Shown: positions 4,993-13,890 of the stretch, piece by piece
How positions within the stretch are numbered: the stretch's first letter is position 1
Layout of the letters: each line of letters begins with the position of its first letter
Assembly (NCBI GenBank): GCA_012517765.1
Contig: JAAYUI010000010.1
Coordinates: 1 to 64,000 of the forward strand
Origin: Caldisericales bacterium
GTDB lineage: Bacteria > Caldisericota > Caldisericia > JAAYUI01
Direction of reading: 5' to 3'
DNA length: 64,000 nt
The notes under the pieces: model-generated
The model's database searches: none
Seen by the model: only the letters and a program-made list of their open reading frames with translations
Told to the model about the DNA's origin: nothing
Position numbers and translations under genes: made by a program

Positions 4993-7752
4993 CTATCTTA
5001 AAACGCTGAGTATTGCATCTACGATTTTACCAACGAAACTGTAGTATGATGCTTTTGTCTTGAAGCTGTATGGTGAAGTCCAGTCAGATGAACCGGCCGC
5101 ATTGACAGATTTTATTCTCCAGTAATATGTTGTTGATGTATTCAGGGTGGGGCAAACATACGAAGTTGTGGTTATGCCAGTTACATCAACCACAGTGCTT
5201 GAGAACATCATTGAGGTGGAAATCTGGAGATTGTAGGATGTTGCCCTGTCGCCCGAGCTCCACTGCAGTGTTGGAGTGAGACTTGAAACTGTTGAGCCGT
5301 AGGTTGGCGAGGACGGGAATGGTAGTCCTGGAGGAAGCGGGAGTGTTTTCGCACTTGCCTCAGTGCAATAGATTGAAGCACCATTCTCGTTGATTGCCCT
5401 GACCCTGTAGAAATATTCCGTGTCAGCAGTAAGAGCGGTATTGCTGTAGGAAGTAACATCCTTGTCAACAGAGGCGATCTTTGAATAACTCCCAAGACCG
5501 TTTCTGCGCTCAATCTCAAACCCTGTTTCGTTGGAAGAATTGTCTTTCCAGGATATGTTGATCTGCGACGAAGAAACAGCTGTTGCGACAAGGTTTGAAG
5601 GTGGATTTGGTGTGGGATCAGAGGTCTGGAAATCCCAAACGGACGACCATGCGGATCCAACATCCACGGAATTGAAAGCTTTTACTCTCCAGTAGTATTT
5701 TGTCTTCCAGTTTATCGTGCCGGCCGTTATGTCATAGGATGTTCCTGTAATGTTGTTTTTGTCCACCACGGTCGTGCTGAAATCGGATGCGGTTGAAACC
5801 TGCAACCTGTAATAGGAAGCATAATTTGCCGTGTTCCATTCAAGTTTTGGCGTCAAATACTGGAAAACTGTTCCTGAGGTCGGGGTTTTGAGTGTTGGCG
5901 TGTCAGGGTCTGGCGGGAATGTCTTTGCGTTTGCGATATTGCTGTAATCAGAATAGGAGTTGACATTGACAGATCTGATTCTGAAATAATAGACCGTTGT
6001 GTGGTTGAGGTTTTTTACGGAGTACGAAACAACGTCGGGCTGGAGGTTGGTTACAAGCTCCCATGTACCGGACAGTCCTTCTCTCTTTTCAAGCGAGAAC
6101 CCCGTCTCATTGTTTGAATTATCGCTCCATGTCAAGTTTATCTGGGACGTTGACACTGCAGTTGCGGCAAGATTGGATGGCGGGTTTGGTGGTGGTGCCG
6201 AGGCGGTCCTGAAGCTCCAGATATCCGACCACGAGGAGACGACATTCTGTGCGTTGACTGATGCTGCACGCCAGTAATAGAGGCTGTTCCAGAACAGGGT
6301 TGCATCATTTACTTCATAATAGCTGCCCGAAATATTGCTTGCATCAACAACTTTTGTTGCAAAATCAGAGCTGTCGGATACCTGCACTTTGAAAGTAACA
6401 TCGCCCGGAATGGCATCCCATTCAAGTTTTGGGTGTTGGGTTGAAACTGTTGACTCGTTTGCAGGTGCCTTGAGGTTTGGCGTGATTGGTGGAACAGCAT
6501 TTGTTGCAATAAAGTACATCTCCTGCCCGTAGCTTGTACCGGAGCCACCAGTGGCTTTTGCCCTGAAATAATATTTCGTCCCATTACTCAAACCACTCAC
6601 CATTGCATAGAAATTGCAGGTTGCAGTCTTTGTTTCGCCTGTGGTTGACCAGCTGTATGGCCCTCCAGCTTTTGTTCCATATTCAAATTTTACTGTTACC
6701 GAGCTTTCAGTTCCCAGGCTTGTCAGCTTTCCATTGAGTTGTGCACTTGAGGCACCAACCCTCGTGGCCTGGGCAGTTTCCACAGTGGGTGGTGTTGCCG
6801 ACTTTAGCTTGAGGACCGTCACGCCAAGGTGCTGGAGCCTCATCGAGCTGTATGTTCCGCCCCAGGTCATCGTATGCGCTGCATGGTCCCAGGTGTCCCT
6901 GATATATATCTTGTTTGTTCCATCAGAAGTGTCATATCCATACCCAAGCATCGAATGGCTTGTGACCTGGATCATGACAGGCCTTCCTGCATCAATCTCG
7001 GCCTTGAAGTCGTCAAATGTAAAACCTTTGGCCGGATCGTTTCCCTGCCCCTTGATTCTCTGGGTAAAGTTCTCGAGAACAGTGTAACCCCTGGACTGGA
7101 CAAAAAGCTTCATTCCATGGCAACCGTCTCTATAGGTTGGCTCTGAGCCTGTATAATCAGACAGCTTGTCACCAGCATCATCTTCCCAGAACATGGTTCC
7201 ACCATCAATATTGCCATATCTTGACTGGTTGGTGCCCATATAGTCACCGGTACAATCACCAAGTGCATGCATGACCCACTTGTTAGTGATGTACGGGTCA
7301 GGCTCGGAGCTGTAGGTGTCCACCCAGAAATCATCGACATGGCCTCTGCTCATTCTCTGGTCAACACTCTGCATGGTAGCGGAAAGCGGGCACTTGCCAG
7401 CCCCCCACGTCTGGTTTGTCATCGGGCAAACTCCGCCATTGGCGGGCCCCTTGTACATGTCAGGATAACCGTTGTTGTCGTAGTAGCCCATCATCATTGC
7501 AGCGCTTGTTGCAGAGCAACCATAACACCAGTCAAAAGCTGGAACACCAGATAAAATTTTGGATACTCCCTGGATTTCAGAAGTTGGCTCTCTGGCAGGA
7601 GGCTCAAGCACTGGCGGTGGTGTACCATCAATTATGATGGCTCCAATGCTGCCTTCAGTTTTATAACCCCATGAAGTCCCTGTGCCATAAAAGGACATTC
7701 CCAAGATTGAAATTGCAAGAACCAGGGTCAGTAGAAGTTTTTTCCCTTTCAT
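4993..7752 (-). CDS. Secreted C39-like peptidase domain protein with six FN3-type repeats
   Basis: A 919-residue exported protein. A signal peptide occupies residues 1-29. A papain-like C39_2-type domain follows (about 65-325): candidate nucleophile Cys in DWCYGCSATSAAM, candidate His in SHSMLGYGYD, candidate Asp in YIRDTWDH. Six fibronectin type III-like modules follow, alternating two types: PPSNL-A-TAVS repeats and LKxPxxGSTVS-LxPxLxW repeats with YYWRVKA strands. The tail SYYSFVGKIVDAIL is hydrophobic but carries no recognisable sorting motif. ATG at 7752 is chosen because GGAAAGGAAG precedes it and because the upstream in-frame TTG at 7830 is the -35 box of the promoter. Substrate unknown; peptidase activity is inferred. 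Confidence 0.8.
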   Translation of the reverse strand: MKGKKLLLTLVLAISILGMSFYGTGTSWGYKTEGSIGAIIIDGTPPPVLEPPAREPTSEIQGVSKILSGVPAFDWCYGCSATSAAMMMGYYDNNGYPDMYKGPANGGVCPMTNQTWGAGKCPLSATMQSVDQRMSRGHVDDFWVDTYSSEPDPYITNKWVMHALGDCTGDYMGTNQSRYGNIDGGTMFWEDDAGDKLSDYTGSEPTYRDGCHGMKLFVQSRGYTVLENFTQRIKGQGNDPAKGFTFDDFKAEIDAGRPVMIQVTSHSMLGYGYDTSDGTNKIYIRDTWDHAAHTMTWGGTYSSMRLQHLGVTVLKLKSATPPTVETAQATRVGASSAQLNGKLTSLGTESSVTVKFEYGTKAGGPYSWSTTGETKTATCNFYAMVSGLSNGTKYYFRAKATGGSGTSYGQEMYFIATNAVPPITPNLKAPANESTVSTQHPKLEWDAIPGDVTFKVQVSDSSDFATKVVDASNISGSYYEVNDATLFWNSLYYWRAASVNAQNVVSSWSDIWSFRTASAPPPNPPSNLAATAVSTSQINLTWSDNSNNETGFSLEKREGLSGTWELVTNLQPDVVSYSVKNLNHTTVYYFRIRSVNVNSYSDYSNIANAKTFPPDPDTPTLKTPTSGTVFQYLTPKLEWNTANYASYYRLQVSTASDFSTTVVDKNNITGTSYDITAGTINWKTKYYWRVKAFNSVDVGSAWSSVWDFQTSDPTPNPPSNLVATAVSSSQINISWKDNSSNETGFEIERRNGLGSYSKIASVDKDVTSYSNTALTADTEYFYRVRAINENGASIYCTEASAKTLPLPPGLPFPSSPTYGSTVSSLTPTLQWSSGDRATSYNLQISTSMMFSSTVVDVTGITTTSYVCPTLNTSTTYYWRIKSVNAAGSSDWTSPYSFKTKASYYSFVGKIVDAILSVLR

Positions 7753-7830: not shown

Positions 7831-8048
7831 ATTAAATCGTTGCCAGAATGGCGTTTATTTGATATTAGTTTTTAATTGTGACAAAGAAATAAATCCAGAT
7901 AAGCAATTGTTAATATAATACCAATAAAAAATATTCTAGATGGAAAAATATTTTGAGTAATAAATCGCCAGCTTGAAGCAAATCATTCCAGAGAAAAATT
8001 AAATGTGGATTATTTTGAACGTTAACGATATCACCACAAGCACTCTTC
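7831..8048. other. AT-rich intergenic region
   Basis: The stretch between the divergent promoters at 7802-7830 (minus) and 8049-8078 (plus) is AT-rich. I see no open reading frame, repeat or hairpin in it that I can support. Confidence 0.5.
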
Positions 8049-8078
8049 TTGACTTTTTGGATTTTTTTCTGCTATCAT
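8049..8078 (+). promoter_or_regulatory. sigma70-type promoter of the methyltransferase/dehydratase operon
   Basis: TTGACT (8049-8054), 18-nt spacer, TATCAT (8073-8078). Predicted start near 8085, about 17 nt before the first helix of the structured leader, giving a leader of roughly 175 nt. Confidence 0.7.
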
Positions 8079-8101
8079 GCTTGCAAATTCTAAAAGAAAG
8101 A

Positions 8102-8254
8102 GGCGGGAAATGTACTCAAGGAACGTCAATCACAGAAGTCTTTGAGCCGGGCGCCAAGCCGTCAGTCTGACGGTTCCGCATAATAATCCGGACGCGTCCC
8201 GCCAGCCAAAAATCTAGATCCTTTTTGTTTGGTGGCCGCGCCACACAAAAAGGA
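8102..8254 (+). ncRNA. Candidate riboswitch-like structured leader with SD-sequestering hairpin
   Basis: A closing helix GGCGGGA (8102-8108) pairs perfectly with TCCCGCC (8197-8203). Inside are a 7-bp helix CTCAAGG/CTTTGAG (8115-8121 with 8140-8146), a possible CCGG/CCGG pairing (8147-8150 with 8188-8191), and a 6-bp hairpin CCGTCA/TGACGG (8159-8164 with 8168-8173). After a short linker comes a second domain: TCCTTTTTGT (8219-8228) pairs perfectly with ACAAAAAGGA (8245-8254), and GTGGC (8232-8236) with GCCAC (8240-8244). The latter helix buries the AGGAGG of the first gene. This aptamer-plus-expression-platform layout is typical of translational riboswitches. I do not recognise the class; the TPP, cobalamin, SAM-I, glycine, lysine, FMN and c-di-GMP cores are absent. 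Confidence 0.6.
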
Positions 8255-8257
8255 GGA

Positions 8258-9064
8258 ATGATTTTGGAACACAGCAAATTTACACTAAAAGATGTACAGA
8301 ATGTCTATTCCGGGGCTGAAAAAGACCTCTGGGAGCTCGTCATGGGAGAACAAATCCATATCGGCGGTTTTGCTTCTTCAATGGAACTGGCACAGAGGGC
8401 CGGAATCAAGGAGGGGATGAAAGGCGTTGACCTGTGCTGCTGCGTTGGTGCAGGCATGAGGTTCCTGTCAAGAAATTTCAAGGTCAGCATGGCAGGTGTT
8501 GATGCAACGGACAGGGTCCTTGGCGAGGCTGCGGAGCGGGCCAAAAAAGAGGGGCTTGAAGCAAAACTGGAATTCAAGAAAGGCGACGTCACAGCAGTTC
8601 CGTATCCGAACTCAACATTCGATTTCGTGTGGGGCGAGGATGCATGGTGCTATGTCGAAGACAAGGGGAAACTCGTCTCTGAAGCTGCAAGAATATTAAA
8701 ACCAGGTGGGACAATTGCTTTCACCGATTGGATCGAGGGGCACAACAAATTGACGAAGGACGAGGCCTCAAGAATTTTTGACTTCATGAAATTCCCATAT
8801 ATGGAGACTCTTGAGGGTTACAAAAACCTCCTTGAAAAAAATGGCTTTGAAGTAATTGAGGCAACCGATCAAAATCAGTATTTTGCAGACCACATTGCAC
8901 TCTACATTGACATGCTCACAAAACAATTCACTTACGATGCGCTCAGGATTATGGGAAACGATGCGAACATGATGCAGGCCATGGGTGGAGAAATGGCCTT
9001 CATGAGAGACATGGCCCGTGCTGGTCGTTTCAGCAGGGGAAGGTTCATAGGAAGAAAAAAGTAG
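8258..9064 (+). CDS. SAM-dependent methyltransferase (class I, UbiE/sarcosine-type)
   Basis: About 268 residues. Rossmann motif I is KGVDLCCCVGAGMRF (residues 55-69). Motif II is AGVDATDRV, motif III VTAVPYPNSTFDFVWGEDAW, and the post-motif is ARILKPGGTIAFTDW. Such proteins transfer a methyl group from S-adenosylmethionine to small molecules; the substrate is unknown. Three consecutive cysteines in the SAM loop are unusual. Start choice is open: AGGAGGA touches ATG 8258 directly, whereas TTG 8264 lies 7 nt from GGAGG, the better spacing. The site is hidden in the leader hairpin, so translation is probably controlled. It is the first gene of a four-gene operon with dehydratase-like Fe-S proteins, 1 nt before the next gene. 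Confidence 0.8.
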   Translation: MILEHSKFTLKDVQNVYSGAEKDLWELVMGEQIHIGGFASSMELAQRAGIKEGMKGVDLCCCVGAGMRFLSRNFKVSMAGVDATDRVLGEAAERAKKEGLEAKLEFKKGDVTAVPYPNSTFDFVWGEDAWCYVEDKGKLVSEAARILKPGGTIAFTDWIEGHNKLTKDEASRIFDFMKFPYMETLEGYKNLLEKNGFEVIEATDQNQYFADHIALYIDMLTKQFTYDALRIMGNDANMMQAMGGEMAFMRDMARAGRFSRGRFIGRKK

Positions 9065-9065
9065 A

Positions 9066-10124
9066 ATGAAAGAAGTTTTCCAGAACCCCATTTTTATTGA
9101 TGTGCTCGAAGCAAGGCAAAGTGCGAAAAATGCAATAAAATATGCCTGCTCATGGGTGCCAAGGGAGCTCCTGGAAAGCTTTGGCTTAAAAACAGCAAGA
9201 CTGATGGGCTGTGGAACGCCATCCCATGAGTCTGCTGGAGAAAGAAAATTAAGCGGAGAGGTATGTTCTTTCTGTAAAACCATCACAGGTGCGCCTGGAA
9301 GTGGCGCACCTGTGATTGGCTGCACCTCATGCGACCAGATGAGAAGATTGTCCGAGATCATTCTTTCAGAAAGAAGCGATGCAGAATTTATGGTCAACGT
9401 TCCAAAAACTTGCACAGATAATTCAAGAGAACTCTATCGCAGTGAAATAAGGGCCCTTTGCTCACACCTCGAATCGTTGACTGGTGAGTCATTGACTGAT
9501 AAGTCATCCAACGCCGGCAAGTTAAAAAGTGTTTGTGGCAAAAGAAATTTCATCAGGTCAGAACTGAGGTCGCTCAGAGAATCCTTAGGTGCTGTTGATT
9601 TTCACTGCCTTGTCCATCTGGAATCCCAGACCGATCCTGATTTTATGATTTCCTATCTCGGAAGATCTTTTAAAACAAAAACCTCTTCAAAGAAAAAAAC
9701 TATGCTGGCAGGAAGTCCGTTGACACTTGAAGACGCAGCTTTTCTAAAACTCCTGGAAGATTCAGGTTTTGAAATTGTTTTCAATACTACGTGCACCGGC
9801 GACAGAAGTATTGATTTTGATATTTCCATAAAAGATGACCCGATTGCCGACCTGGCCGATTCATATTTCAATCGTCCCCCTTGCATATGGAAGAGGCCAA
9901 ACGATTCTTTTTATTCCTATGTTTCCAAAAAAATCTTGGAGACAGGCGCAACTTCAGTGATCTGGAGATCAGTGAGATATTGCGATCTGTGGAACATTGA
10001 GGCCCAGCGGGCAAAACAGATAATCAATCTGCCAATGCTTGTGCTTGACATGAACTACTCAGACACCTGCTCTCCAAGGACTGCAACAAGAGTAGAGGCG
10101 TTCAGAGAGAGTCTGCCACAATGA
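9066..10124 (+). CDS. 2-hydroxyacyl-CoA dehydratase (HgdB/BcrC-like) family subunit
   Basis: A 352-residue protein of the HgdB/HgdC, BcrB/BcrC and double-cubane-protein superfamily, which carries Fe-S clusters reduced by an ATP-driven activase. Visible cysteine sites are CSFCK (about residue 67), GCTSCDQMRR (about 84), VPKTC, TTCTG and RYCDLW near the C-terminus. The SWVPRELLESFGLK start segment is the family's usual 'P-x-E-L-L/I' helix. It overlaps the next gene by 4 nt (ATGA). A long perfect palindrome (9282-9316) lies inside the gene and encodes the sequence around ITGAPGSGAPVI. Substrate unknown; the family does CoA-ester dehydration, ring reduction or small-molecule reduction. Confidence 0.75.
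   Translation: MKEVFQNPIFIDVLEARQSAKNAIKYACSWVPRELLESFGLKTARLMGCGTPSHESAGERKLSGEVCSFCKTITGAPGSGAPVIGCTSCDQMRRLSEIILSERSDAEFMVNVPKTCTDNSRELYRSEIRALCSHLESLTGESLTDKSSNAGKLKSVCGKRNFIRSELRSLRESLGAVDFHCLVHLESQTDPDFMISYLGRSFKTKTSSKKKTMLAGSPLTLEDAAFLKLLEDSGFEIVFNTTCTGDRSIDFDISIKDDPIADLADSYFNRPPCIWKRPNDSFYSYVSKKILETGATSVIWRSVRYCDLWNIEAQRAKQIINLPMLVLDMNYSDTCSPRTATRVEAFRESLPQ
9282..9316. repeat. Perfect 14-bp inverted repeat inside a dehydratase-like gene
   Basis: ATCACAGGTGCGCC (9282-9295) and GGCGCACCTGTGAT (9303-9316) are exact reverse complements with a 7-nt loop. No U-run follows. It would form a very stable mRNA hairpin about 215 nt into the coding region. Confidence 0.8.
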
Positions 10125-11572
10125 GACAATACTGGCCCGATCCGAAACCAGAGAGAATAACCTACGATCAGTGGAACTCCCAGTTCAGGATGATGCCTGA
10201 AAGCCAAAAGAAGGCCTTTTGCTATTTGGAGGGAACCTCCAAAGAAACCCAGTATCTGGAAGAACCCAGGTGCTTTGCCGAAGACCAGGGAGACTTGAGG
10301 CTAAAATCGCTCAAGTATGACAACTCGCTTGCTTCAATAAGACTCTGGTCTTTCCTGCTTTCTGAGGAGGAGAGACTCCACAAGGCAAGACTCGCAGGAA
10401 AAAAGATAATCGGGACACTCAAGGATCTTGGTACAATGCCAGTCCTGACCTACTCATCACCAGACACAATTGCGTTTTATCCCGACGGGGCATGGTGGAT
10501 ACCATGCATCATGGAGATGTCGGAAGGGCTGCTCAAAATGGCCGACTCGCTTGGCCTTGGTGAGGAAGTGTGCCCCTCAAGGGCCACCCTTTCTGCCTAC
10601 ATATCAAACAACCATTTTCCAAGGCCGGACTACCTGATTGCCGCAGTTGGGTGCTGTTGCGACGATTTCTCGGCAATCATGCAGAGACTGGCCGACATGG
10701 GAACAAAAACGAGCTGGTGGGAGCTCCCGTTCAGGGGCAGTCCATCTGCTGGCGAGGAAGTTGAATTGCTCCCGACAGGATTTTATGCCCCAAAAAGGAC
10801 AGCCGATTTCTTGGAAAGGGAATTCGACAGGATAAGAAACGAGCTTTCAGAGTTTCTCGGGCACCCCATAACCGACAACATGGTTTCGGAGGGCATAGAG
10901 AAAGCCAACAGGTTCAGGCAAATAATTGGCGAGGTAAGGGACCTTTGCTATGGCTCTTCGCCATGCCCCTTCCCTGCACTGGAAACCCAGATCTGTGAAA
11001 TGATAGCCATCCACTTCTGTTCAGACAGGGAAGAGGCAACAAATGTGCTTGCCCATGTCCTGGAAACGGTCAGAAAAAGGGTGGAAAGTGGTGCTGGCGT
11101 ACTCCCAAAAGAAAACTGCAGGGCGGTCTGGGTAAACCCGGTTGCAGACCTGAGGGTCATGAACCTCTTTGAGGACCTTGGCGGTGCAATCGCCGGAACA
11201 GAATATCTTTTCAGGCATGCACTCGTCCAGATTCCCACCAATGTCAGCCCGATGAGGGCCCTGGCGTTGACAGCACTTTCTGACCCCATGATAGGCCCGG
11301 CATTGCAGAGGGCAAAAATTGTTATTGACGAAGTAAAAAAATACAAAGCAGAGGGCATCGTTGTAAGCAACATCCCTGGCGCTTCCCACAGCGCAACCGA
11401 AGGAAACATCATCAGGGAACTGGCATCAAAAGAGGGAATTCCGGTGCTCCAGATATCGGTGCCACCTCTCACTGATGCAACATCATCACAGCTGGGCACA
11501 AGATTTGAGGCATTTTTCGAGCTGATAAGAAGCAGGAGGAAACAAAAGTGGCAACCTACACCCTTGGCATAG
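10121..11572 (+). CDS. 2-hydroxyacyl-CoA dehydratase (HgdB-like) family subunit, second
   Basis: A 483-residue member of the same superfamily as its upstream neighbour, longer by an N-terminal region. Cysteine sites include EEVCPSR, AAVGCCCDDF and SSPCPFPALE. The family helical segment GHPITDNMVSEGIEKANRFRQ and the C-terminal Rossmann-like half (GIVVSNIPGASHSATEGNIIRE) are present. The last segment, PVLQISVPPLTDATSSQLGTR, is where family members end with a polar D-Y/T segment before the C-terminal helix. It is translationally coupled at both ends: 4-nt overlap with the previous gene and 25-nt overlap with the next. Probably forms a heteromeric Fe-S enzyme with the neighbours; the substrate is not evident. 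Confidence 0.72.
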   Translation: MRQYWPDPKPERITYDQWNSQFRMMPESQKKAFCYLEGTSKETQYLEEPRCFAEDQGDLRLKSLKYDNSLASIRLWSFLLSEEERLHKARLAGKKIIGTLKDLGTMPVLTYSSPDTIAFYPDGAWWIPCIMEMSEGLLKMADSLGLGEEVCPSRATLSAYISNNHFPRPDYLIAAVGCCCDDFSAIMQRLADMGTKTSWWELPFRGSPSAGEEVELLPTGFYAPKRTADFLEREFDRIRNELSEFLGHPITDNMVSEGIEKANRFRQIIGEVRDLCYGSSPCPFPALETQICEMIAIHFCSDREEATNVLAHVLETVRKRVESGAGVLPKENCRAVWVNPVADLRVMNLFEDLGGAIAGTEYLFRHALVQIPTNVSPMRALALTALSDPMIGPALQRAKIVIDEVKKYKAEGIVVSNIPGASHSATEGNIIRELASKEGIPVLQISVPPLTDATSSQLGTRFEAFFELIRSRRKQKWQPTPLA

Positions 11573-13890
11573 ATCTCGGCAGCAGGACTGCAAAAGCTGT
11601 TCTCTACAACATAAACGAAAAGAAGATCGCGTCGGCAATAGTCACCGATACAACCGCCAATTCAAAAAGTGACGCAAAAAGGGTGCAGGAACTTGCTCTT
11701 GAGTATGCAGGCGTATTGCCTTCTGATTTGAAAAGAACAATTGCAACCGGCTATGGCAGGGGTCTCGTCGATTTCGCATGCGATACAACGACAGAGATCA
11801 CATGCCATGCGGTTGGTGTCCATCTCCTTGTGCCACAGGCAAGAACAATTATCGACATTGGCGGACAGGACAGCAAATCTATCCATCTCAATGCCGACGG
11901 TACCATAAGAGACTTCTCCATGAACGATAGGTGCGCGGCAGGAACAGGGAGATTTCTCGAAGTGGTTTCAAAGCTCCTCGGGACCAACCTCGATGGAATG
12001 GCAAAACTGGCCGGGATGGCAACAGATGTACCTGAGATAAGCTCAATGTGCGTCGTCTTTGCAGAAAGCGAAGTGATAGGAATGCTCGCAAAGGGCATCA
12101 GGAGAGAGGAGCTTTCGGCAGGCATCCACAAATCAATCGCCAGGAGAGTCGCTGGGCTCGCAGAGAGAGGAAGGATTGAACCTCCGGTTGCTTTCACCGG
12201 CGGTGTTGCCAAAGATATGGCAATGATAAGGGCGCTGGGCGCAGAGCTCCATGAAAAACTGCTCATTCCGCCAGACCCAAGAATAACAGGCGCACTTGGT
12301 GCGGCAATCATAGCGGCAAGGCAACTCGGCGAAAAAGGTAATCTCACTTGCACCGAATTTAAAACCATCAACCTCCAGCAGTCATTTTCAGATGTGTCCC
12401 AAAAACGGGAGGAACAGGACATGCTGATTGTTGACAGCATAAAGGGCGATTGTTGCCCGTGGCCACCACCAGTAAAAAATTCGTCAGAGTGCCACCACCA
12501 GGAGGAACAACAGGTTTGCTGTGGCTCTGAAACCCAAAAACAAGCGAATTGTAATGGTAATGAAGAAGCATCATGTTGCAGCTCTGCGAGTGTGAATGAA
12601 GCAAAACAGTCATACTGCGAGGAAGCAGAACCAGCTCCATGTTGTGGAGGGAGCCAGCCAGAGCCATGCCGCTCATCTGAAAAAGAGAGCACATGCGAAA
12701 GCGGGCCAGCTAAAACACAGCAATGCAGTTCGACAACGCCACAGGGTGGCATGCATTCCGTGCCGTCACTTTCACACTTCGACCGCATGATATCAGACTG
12801 CATTGAGCTTGCCAGGCAGGCAAAATCGGACAGCAAAAAGGTGGTTTCCATTTTCTGCGAGTACACGCCAAGGGAGCTGATACTTGCCGCGGGAGCGATA
12901 CCCGTGTGCGCATGCGGAGGCAACCATTCAATGGCCGTGGCATCCGAAAAGGAGCTCCCTGCCAACCTTTGCCCGCTCATCAAGTCATCTTACGGCTACC
13001 ACACCGAGAGGGCCAACCCGATATTCAACGAATCAGATTTGATTGTGTGCGAAACAACCTGCGACGGCAAAAAGAAGATGTATGAGCTGATGTCAAAAAC
13101 AAAGCCCATGCACATTCTTGAGCTGACCCAGAAACCGGATGAAGAGGCAGCATTCGAGCACTGGCTGCTGGAAGTAAAGGCGCTCAAAAAGAGGCTTGAA
13201 GAGCTGACCGGAAACGAAATCACCGAAGAGAGGCTCAGGGCAGCAATCAGGACAATGAACAGGGAGAGGACGCTCAGGTCAAGGATCGCAGATTTTGGCG
13301 GGAAATGCCTTACCGGAATGGAAGTGCTCCACGCCAAAAGCATCATCTCCTGCCAGGAGAGAGACTTCAAGGCATACGAAAAAATTATATCGGAAGCTGA
13401 AAACTCCGGTGATAGATACTCACACAAGCCAAGGATGCTCCTTACCGGTGTGCCGTTACCGCACCAGGCAGAGAAAGTCCTAAAACTGATTGAGGAGGCG
13501 GGGGCAGTGGTTGTGGCACAGGAAAACTGCACCGGACTCAAACCAATCGTCGACCCCGTCAGCGAAGAGGGCGATCTCCTGGAAAATATTGCCAGAAAAT
13601 ACTTCAAACTGCCGTGTTCGGTCATGATGCCGAACAAAGACAGGTTTGGACTGCTTGACAGCCTGATTGAAAAATTCAGGCCCCATGGCATCATCGACCT
13701 GGTGTGGCAAGCTTGTCACACATACAACATCGAATCAGTACTGGTCAAAAAACATGTCCAGGAAAAATGGGGGCTCCCTTTCCTTAAAATCGAGACTGAC
13801 TATTCACCTTCGGACACAGAACAGCTAAGGGTCAGGATTGAGGCATTTTTGTCGGTTGCATCACAAAACAACCAGAAAAAATCCTACTAA
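11548..13890 (+). CDS. Fusion: ASKHA activase + CC-repeat linker + double-cubane/2-hydroxyacyl-CoA dehydratase-like domain
   Basis: A 780-residue three-part protein. Residues 1-265 form an ATPase activase of the HgdC/BadF type: LGIDLGSRTAK, IDIGGQDSK, C129 in DRCAAGTGRF and C168 in SSMCVVFAESE, the last two being the bridging [4Fe-4S] ligands. Residues 302-393 are a hydrophilic linker with 14 cysteines in four repeats. Residues about 410-775 are a second dehydratase-superfamily domain with CACGG, NLCPLIK, CETTCDGKKKMYE and WQACHTY. Such activases deliver electrons at very low potential using ATP. GTG at 11548 follows AGGAGGAAACAAAA. Having activase and acceptor in one chain is uncommon and suggests a self-contained low-potential reductase. 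Confidence 0.8.
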   Translation: MATYTLGIDLGSRTAKAVLYNINEKKIASAIVTDTTANSKSDAKRVQELALEYAGVLPSDLKRTIATGYGRGLVDFACDTTTEITCHAVGVHLLVPQARTIIDIGGQDSKSIHLNADGTIRDFSMNDRCAAGTGRFLEVVSKLLGTNLDGMAKLAGMATDVPEISSMCVVFAESEVIGMLAKGIRREELSAGIHKSIARRVAGLAERGRIEPPVAFTGGVAKDMAMIRALGAELHEKLLIPPDPRITGALGAAIIAARQLGEKGNLTCTEFKTINLQQSFSDVSQKREEQDMLIVDSIKGDCCPWPPPVKNSSECHHQEEQQVCCGSETQKQANCNGNEEASCCSSASVNEAKQSYCEEAEPAPCCGGSQPEPCRSSEKESTCESGPAKTQQCSSTTPQGGMHSVPSLSHFDRMISDCIELARQAKSDSKKVVSIFCEYTPRELILAAGAIPVCACGGNHSMAVASEKELPANLCPLIKSSYGYHTERANPIFNESDLIVCETTCDGKKKMYELMSKTKPMHILELTQKPDEEAAFEHWLLEVKALKKRLEELTGNEITEERLRAAIRTMNRERTLRSRIADFGGKCLTGMEVLHAKSIISCQERDFKAYEKIISEAENSGDRYSHKPRMLLTGVPLPHQAEKVLKLIEEAGAVVVAQENCTGLKPIVDPVSEEGDLLENIARKYFKLPCSVMMPNKDRFGLLDSLIEKFRPHGIIDLVWQACHTYNIESVLVKKHVQEKWGLPFLKIETDYSPSDTEQLRVRIEAFLSVASQNNQKKSY
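12451..12726 (+). repeat. Cysteine-rich repeat segment inside the activase fusion
   Basis: The encoded residues 302-393 contain CC pairs at 302/303, 324/325, 343/344 and 365/366, i.e. one every 19-22 residues. Single cysteines follow at 315, 335, 357, 374, 383 and 393. Intervening residues are mostly E, Q, S, N, K and P. The DNA is not repetitive, so the cysteine spacing appears conserved by function and not by recent duplication. Confidence 0.75.

Follow-up and report, generated by a model that had tools for sequence, protein, structure and literature searches.

The leader of the methyltransferase operon in the window, that is, in the whole 64,000-nt stretch of Caldisericales DNA that was analysed, is a real, conserved and structured element. 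It carries a short ORF that runs into a UGA codon, and the hairpin following this UGA has the geometry of a bacterial SECIS with a covarying stem. The best explanation, and in our judgement probably the right one, is a selenocysteine-dependent translational switch, in which the fate of the ribosome at the UGA would decide whether the Shine-Dalgarno (SD) sequence of the methyltransferase gene is exposed; we infer that the leader regulates and in which direction. The features of the leader are listed below, G002 being a congener of the window organism and L049 a locus of its sister genus.

8049-8078, + strand: promoter, TTGACT and TATCAT with an 18-nt spacer and extended TG (10 of 12 consensus matches)
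8100-8103, + strand: SD of the leader ORF, GAGG (from the sequence; AGGAG at the matching place in L049)
8102-8108, + strand: 5′ arm of the closing helix P1, GGCGGGA (in the MFE fold; analogous GCGGGAU/AUCCCGC helix in L049)
8110-8217, + strand: leader ORF through the UGA, MYSRNVNHRSL-U-AGRQAVSLTVPHNNPDASRQPKI, with stop UAG at 8215-8217 (frame open in 14 of 14 homologous leaders)
8143-8145, + strand: UGA, proposed selenocysteine codon (invariant in the aligned leaders, open frame beyond)
8157-8175, + strand: SECIS-type hairpin, stem 8157-8163/8169-8175, loop AGUCU at 8164-8168, conserved G23 at 8165 (7 of 7 pairs covary)
8197-8203, + strand: 3′ arm of P1, UCCCGCC (in the MFE fold; counterpart in L049)
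8219-8254, + strand: SD-sequestering hairpin of 10 bp, 8219-8228/8245-8254 (5′ arm beginning 1 nt past the UAG; hairpin of different sequence at the same place in L049)
8250-8256, + strand: SD of the methyltransferase gene, AAGGAGG (by comparison with G002 and L049)

A conserved and structured leader

The minimum free energy (MFE) of the 196-nt leader is -68.2 kcal/mol (z = -4.7 relative to 200 dinucleotide shuffles, all of which were higher), and the corresponding fold contains both the closing helix and the 10-bp hairpin that captures the AAGGAGG of the methyltransferase gene. An earlier note, made from the sequence alone, had described a promoter, a structured leader, this closing helix and this SD-hiding hairpin, all of which were recovered here. 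P1 pairs bases at or beside the SD of the leader ORF itself, as does its counterpart in L049. Comparison with G002 (the congeners being Caldisericia and Caldisericales MAGs) gave 100% identity over 8085-8109, 95% over 8110-8217 and 96% over 8218-8264, versus 86% in the methyltransferase gene; the promoter is 87% identical, versus 53% for the DNA farther upstream. Two more congeners share about 99% identity with the window over 8190-8264. The comparison with G002 and L049 also indicated that the methyltransferase starts at TTG 8264, which is conserved, and not at ATG 8258, which is not. Transcription attenuation was ruled out, since no terminator-like site was found at 7900-8330. As a side observation, the contigs carrying L003 and L004 (from the congeners G003 and G001) both end at one and the same leader base, corresponding to window position 8190 and lying within the palindrome GGACGCGTCC, which possibly reflects an assembly break at a structured or repeated element.

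A short ORF with an in-frame UGA codon

The region that the earlier note had taken for an aptamer is traversed by a short ORF, which that note overlooked. That is, from AUG 8110, preceded by the SD GAGG at 8100, the frame encodes MYSRNVNHRSL up to UGA 8143 and then goes on to UAG 8215, the read-through stop, which abuts the SD hairpin. Similar short ORFs are present in 13 homologues, some of them without an obvious SD. Over the 18 codons past the UGA in the 14 leaders (252 codons), the UGA frame contains no stop codon, while the other two frames contain 12 and 19; as about 12 stops would be expected in random sequence, their complete absence is very unlikely to be due to chance, the frame having been set by the UGA and not picked for its openness.

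The encoded peptides are 29-41 aa long and their sequences diverge between groups. Between G002 and the window, one of the three changes before the UGA is synonymous and two are conservative (V to I and R to K), and both changes after it replace a residue, and one of these two preserves a base pair of the stem (G-U to A-U). In addition, the element AAAGGAGG occurs in both L044 and L129, but in a different frame in each. Taken together, the frame difference and the G002 substitutions suggest that it is the RNA rather than the peptide that appears to be conserved. Decoding of UGA 8143 as selenocysteine is well supported by computation, through the open frame together with the SECIS hairpin and the decoding machinery described below, and from this we infer incorporation in vivo.

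A SECIS-type hairpin follows the UGA

The hairpin downstream of the UGA consists of 7 bp closed by the 5-nt loop AGUCU, with the loop G at position 23 counting from the U of the UGA. Twelve leaders could be aligned without gaps from the UGA to +36, and the only invariant columns in this stretch are the UGA and G23. In this alignment positions 15-21 pair with 27-33 around a 5-nt loop of which G23 is the second position, and all seven stem pairs show two-sided changes. Of the cells, 89% are paired; shuffles gave 58% and slid controls 27-37%. The stem scores 0.84 for covariation, compared with 0.24 after shuffling. Covariation, which the earlier note had proposed as a check on its helices, is borne out for this internal stem. 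The closing helix is present in the two Caldisericota genera, and was not found as a feature common to the Calditrichota leaders.

Altogether, 12 of the 14 leaders have G23. As for exceptions to the pattern, L040 has its G at 24, L049 has a candidate loop GGUCU with G at 20-21 (GGUC at 20-23), and L051 has a poor stem. In a blind pattern scan, 8 of 12 leader regions matched against an expectation of 0.12, compared with 3 of 66 homologues without the leader against an expectation of 2.0; the signature occurs once in the 64-kb window, both strands having been searched.

Homologous leaders and selenocysteine machinery in the carrier genomes

A single search for the methyltransferase across 84,980 species genomes yielded 80 loci. 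Fourteen leaders, first spotted by eye and so open to some selection bias, share the features described above and come from Caldisericota, Calditrichota and one unassigned bacterium (L040). Besides Caldisericota, comparable leaders occur at nine Calditrichota-type loci and at L040, and L129 comes from a tenth Calditrichota genome. The sister genus (G004; L025/L049) has a leader whose sequence is for the most part unrelated but whose layout is the same, namely an AGGAG, an AUG, nine codons, the UGA, and a second stop just 5′ of a different hairpin hiding AAGGAGG. No such leader was detected above chance at the other 66 homologues, mostly from Planctomycetota, Verrucomicrobiota and Myxococcota, or at 13 further Planctomycetota loci.

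SelB scored above the cut-off in all 16 leader genomes and tRNA-Sec was found in 15 of them; the exception is G002, where tRNA-Sec is missing from the assembly and the SelB match spans only model positions 2-343. In G000 and G004 the selB gene adjoins the tRNA-Sec gene. Within Caldisericota, tRNA-Sec is present in four of the five genomes of the leader-bearing family versus none of 49 others. The background is high elsewhere (32 of 39 genomes in Calditrichota, 159 of 246 in Planctomycetota), and because tRNA-Sec is common there anyway, the machinery in those phyla is necessary for the proposal but weak evidence for it. The methyltransferase operon itself was also considered as a marker of selenium use, and this is not supported by the tRNA-Sec counts among operon carriers (10/12 in Planctomycetota, 10/10 in Calditrichota) set against the same overall figures. 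Several Calditrichota genomes carry more than one copy of these components: tRNA-Sec scored above the Rfam cut-off twice in G063, G064, G067, G070, G127 and G128, and a full-scoring selB occurs twice in G061, G063, G064, G065, G067, G069 and G128. A second set for decoding selenocysteine is possible in Calditrichota with duplicate tRNA-Sec or selB. In G067, selB shares a contig with the methyltransferase operon.

Ribosome position and access to the methyltransferase SD

Accessibility of the methyltransferase SD was computed with an energy model in which a ribosome footprint was stepped codon by codon along the leader ORF. In the window, the modelled probability that the SD is open stays below 1e-6 along nearly the whole ORF, a ribosome on the UGA giving 1e-8. 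It crosses 0.04 two to three codons ahead of UAG 8215, and no more than one codon away from this stop it is 0.4-0.66; footprints with a leading edge of 9, 12 or 15 nt behave alike. Since the modelled opening is confined to the vicinity of the UAG, termination at the UGA would leave the operon off and insertion of selenocysteine would open the hairpin. An anti-sequestor helix (8200-8209/8226-8234), freed by melting of P1 during translation of the leader, was discarded for the window, as the probability does not rise above about 1e-6 when P1 is blocked.

The proposed sequence of events is as follows. Ribosomes would initiate at AUG 8110 and meet UGA 8143 ahead of the SECIS hairpin. When Sec-tRNA-Sec and SelB are lacking, RF2 would terminate translation at the UGA, so that the ribosome stops short of the hairpin at 8219-8254, leaving the methyltransferase operon off. 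When both are available, the UGA would be read as selenocysteine and the ribosome would continue to UAG 8215, where its footprint is predicted to cover the 5′ arm of the hairpin, thereby freeing AAGGAGG for initiation.

The same model gave other outcomes for other leaders. In L049 the rise is smaller, from 1.8e-4 to 0.005-0.05; in L052 the SD is less open with a ribosome at the second stop, which is the opposite sign to the window; and in L043 and other Calditrichota leaders the modelled opening follows no clear trend. In several Calditrichota leaders an AAGGAGG in the read-through part is able to pair with a CUUCCUCC-type stretch located downstream, and this stretch is also able to pair with the methyltransferase SD. 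In the model, the sign of the switch is clear only for the window; it appears weak in the sister genus and may be reversed in Calditrichota.

The main rival to the switch is a functional selenopeptide, that is, the leader ORF would be a tiny selenoprotein gene, the first of the operon, whose product is the 29-41 aa selenocysteine peptide, often with a CxU redox motif. The UGA, the SECIS and the open frame do point to a translated selenopeptide, and a Cys at -2 from the U is present in 6 of the 14 leaders. We nevertheless regard it as unlikely, for the peptides differ in sequence from group to group and matched no NCBIfam family, the post-UGA changes in G002 alter residues and in one case spare a stem pair, AAAGGAGG is read in different frames in L044 and L129 as if the RNA were the conserved entity, and in both Caldisericota genera the ORF extends just as far as the SD hairpin.

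Alternatively, the leader could be an attenuator in which the UGA is an ordinary stop and ribosome occupancy or stalling at that point controls the SD hairpin. The short ORF, which has an SD of its own, and the roughly central position of the UGA in the leader would fit such a device, but the hairpin stays closed in the model with a ribosome at the UGA, the frame beyond is open in every leader, and a covarying SECIS hairpin at a fixed distance is given no role, which makes this reading very improbable. We give least credence of all to a translational riboswitch responding to a small molecule (SAM, a CoA ester or a redox ligand), as the earlier note had proposed. Its idea of a regulatory leader with an SD-sequestering hairpin holds, and the closing helix and multi-helix fold are what a riboswitch might display; its aptamer does not, as apart from the UGA and the G23 loop the homologues have no conserved unpaired core, and the leader is occupied by an open reading frame that has an SD and a start codon. 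The note was also right that no known class is represented: Rfam searches of the window, of the leader (up to E = 10) and of the 14 homologous loci gave no match at the gathering threshold, and none that was meaningful in the extended search of the leader.

Relation to known systems

Selenocysteine insertion is known as a way of building enzymes. In the SECIS of E. coli fdhF, the loop motif G23-U24-C25-U26-G27 was confirmed in 5389 E. coli genomes; the window element resembles it in having an in-frame UGA with a hairpin directly 3′ and the identical motif in the same register. The two differ in that the window loop has 5 nt and that of fdhF 6 nt, in that the bulged U17 is absent from the window, and in their setting, which is a short, poorly conserved leader ORF in the window and an enzyme active site in fdhF. 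A SECIS RNA was reportedly described in the E. coli selAB 5′ leader by Thanbichler and Boeck in 2002, with translational control dependent on SelB and Sec-tRNA as the proposed function. That leader, which likewise has a SECIS-type hairpin in the mRNA leader, is said to act by SelB binding and not by UGA decoding in a leader ORF, whereas the window leader has a UGA codon and an open frame.

In attenuators of the erm/cat type, translation of a short leader ORF opens a hairpin that hides a downstream SD. The same arrangement is proposed for the window, except that the decision would lie between selenocysteine insertion and termination at the UGA and not in whether sense codons or a drug stall the ribosome. 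Translational riboswitches share with the window a structured leader and an SD-sequestering hairpin; the window leader differs from them in being translated and in lacking a conserved aptamer core or Rfam class. No precedent for a leader switch based on selenocysteine decoding was found in the largely open-access part of the literature that was searched.

We lean towards the view that these leaders represent a class of regulator in which decoding of UGA as selenocysteine in a short leader ORF, otherwise not conserved, serves as the sensor, the supply of Sec-tRNA and SelB deciding whether the ribosome gets to and remodels the structure that governs a methyltransferase/double-cubane reductase operon. 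This class would span at least two phyla, with outputs wired differently. If this is true, a recoding signal would be used as a switch that reports the supply of Sec-tRNA to a non-selenoprotein gene, and would amount to a direct genetic selenium sensor in bacteria. It would also link a widespread methyltransferase/double-cubane operon to selenium, and mean that ordinary annotation conceals such signals, the leader ORF looking like a short ORF with a stop.

The downstream operon and neighbouring genes

The operon downstream of the leader consists of the following genes.

8264-9064, + strand: gene 1, class I SAM methyltransferase (Pfam Methyltransf_11, 8.8e-18)
9066-10124, + strand: gene 2, HGD-D or double-cubane-like subunit (PF06050, 8.7e-45)
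10121-11572, + strand: gene 3, HGD-D subunit (PF06050, 5.4e-39)
11548-13890, + strand: gene 4, BadF/BcrA-type ATPase activator fused to a double-cubane reductase (PF01869, 1.4e-56; PF06050, 1.3e-98; NF040772 above cut-off)

The two halves of the gene 4 fusion are joined by a Cys-rich linker and are separate genes in most other phyla. At the two leader-bearing loci that were examined for this (L040 and L043), the operon also has corrinoid (B12-binding) and MtaA-like URO-D proteins. An operon of the order methyltransferase-DCC-HGD-HGD-activator is widespread in Planctomycetota, Verrucomicrobiota, Myxococcota and others (L055-L115). On the other side of the leader, the divergent gene at 4993-7752 (- strand) encodes a large fibronectin type III protein, secreted and including a C39-like peptidase region.
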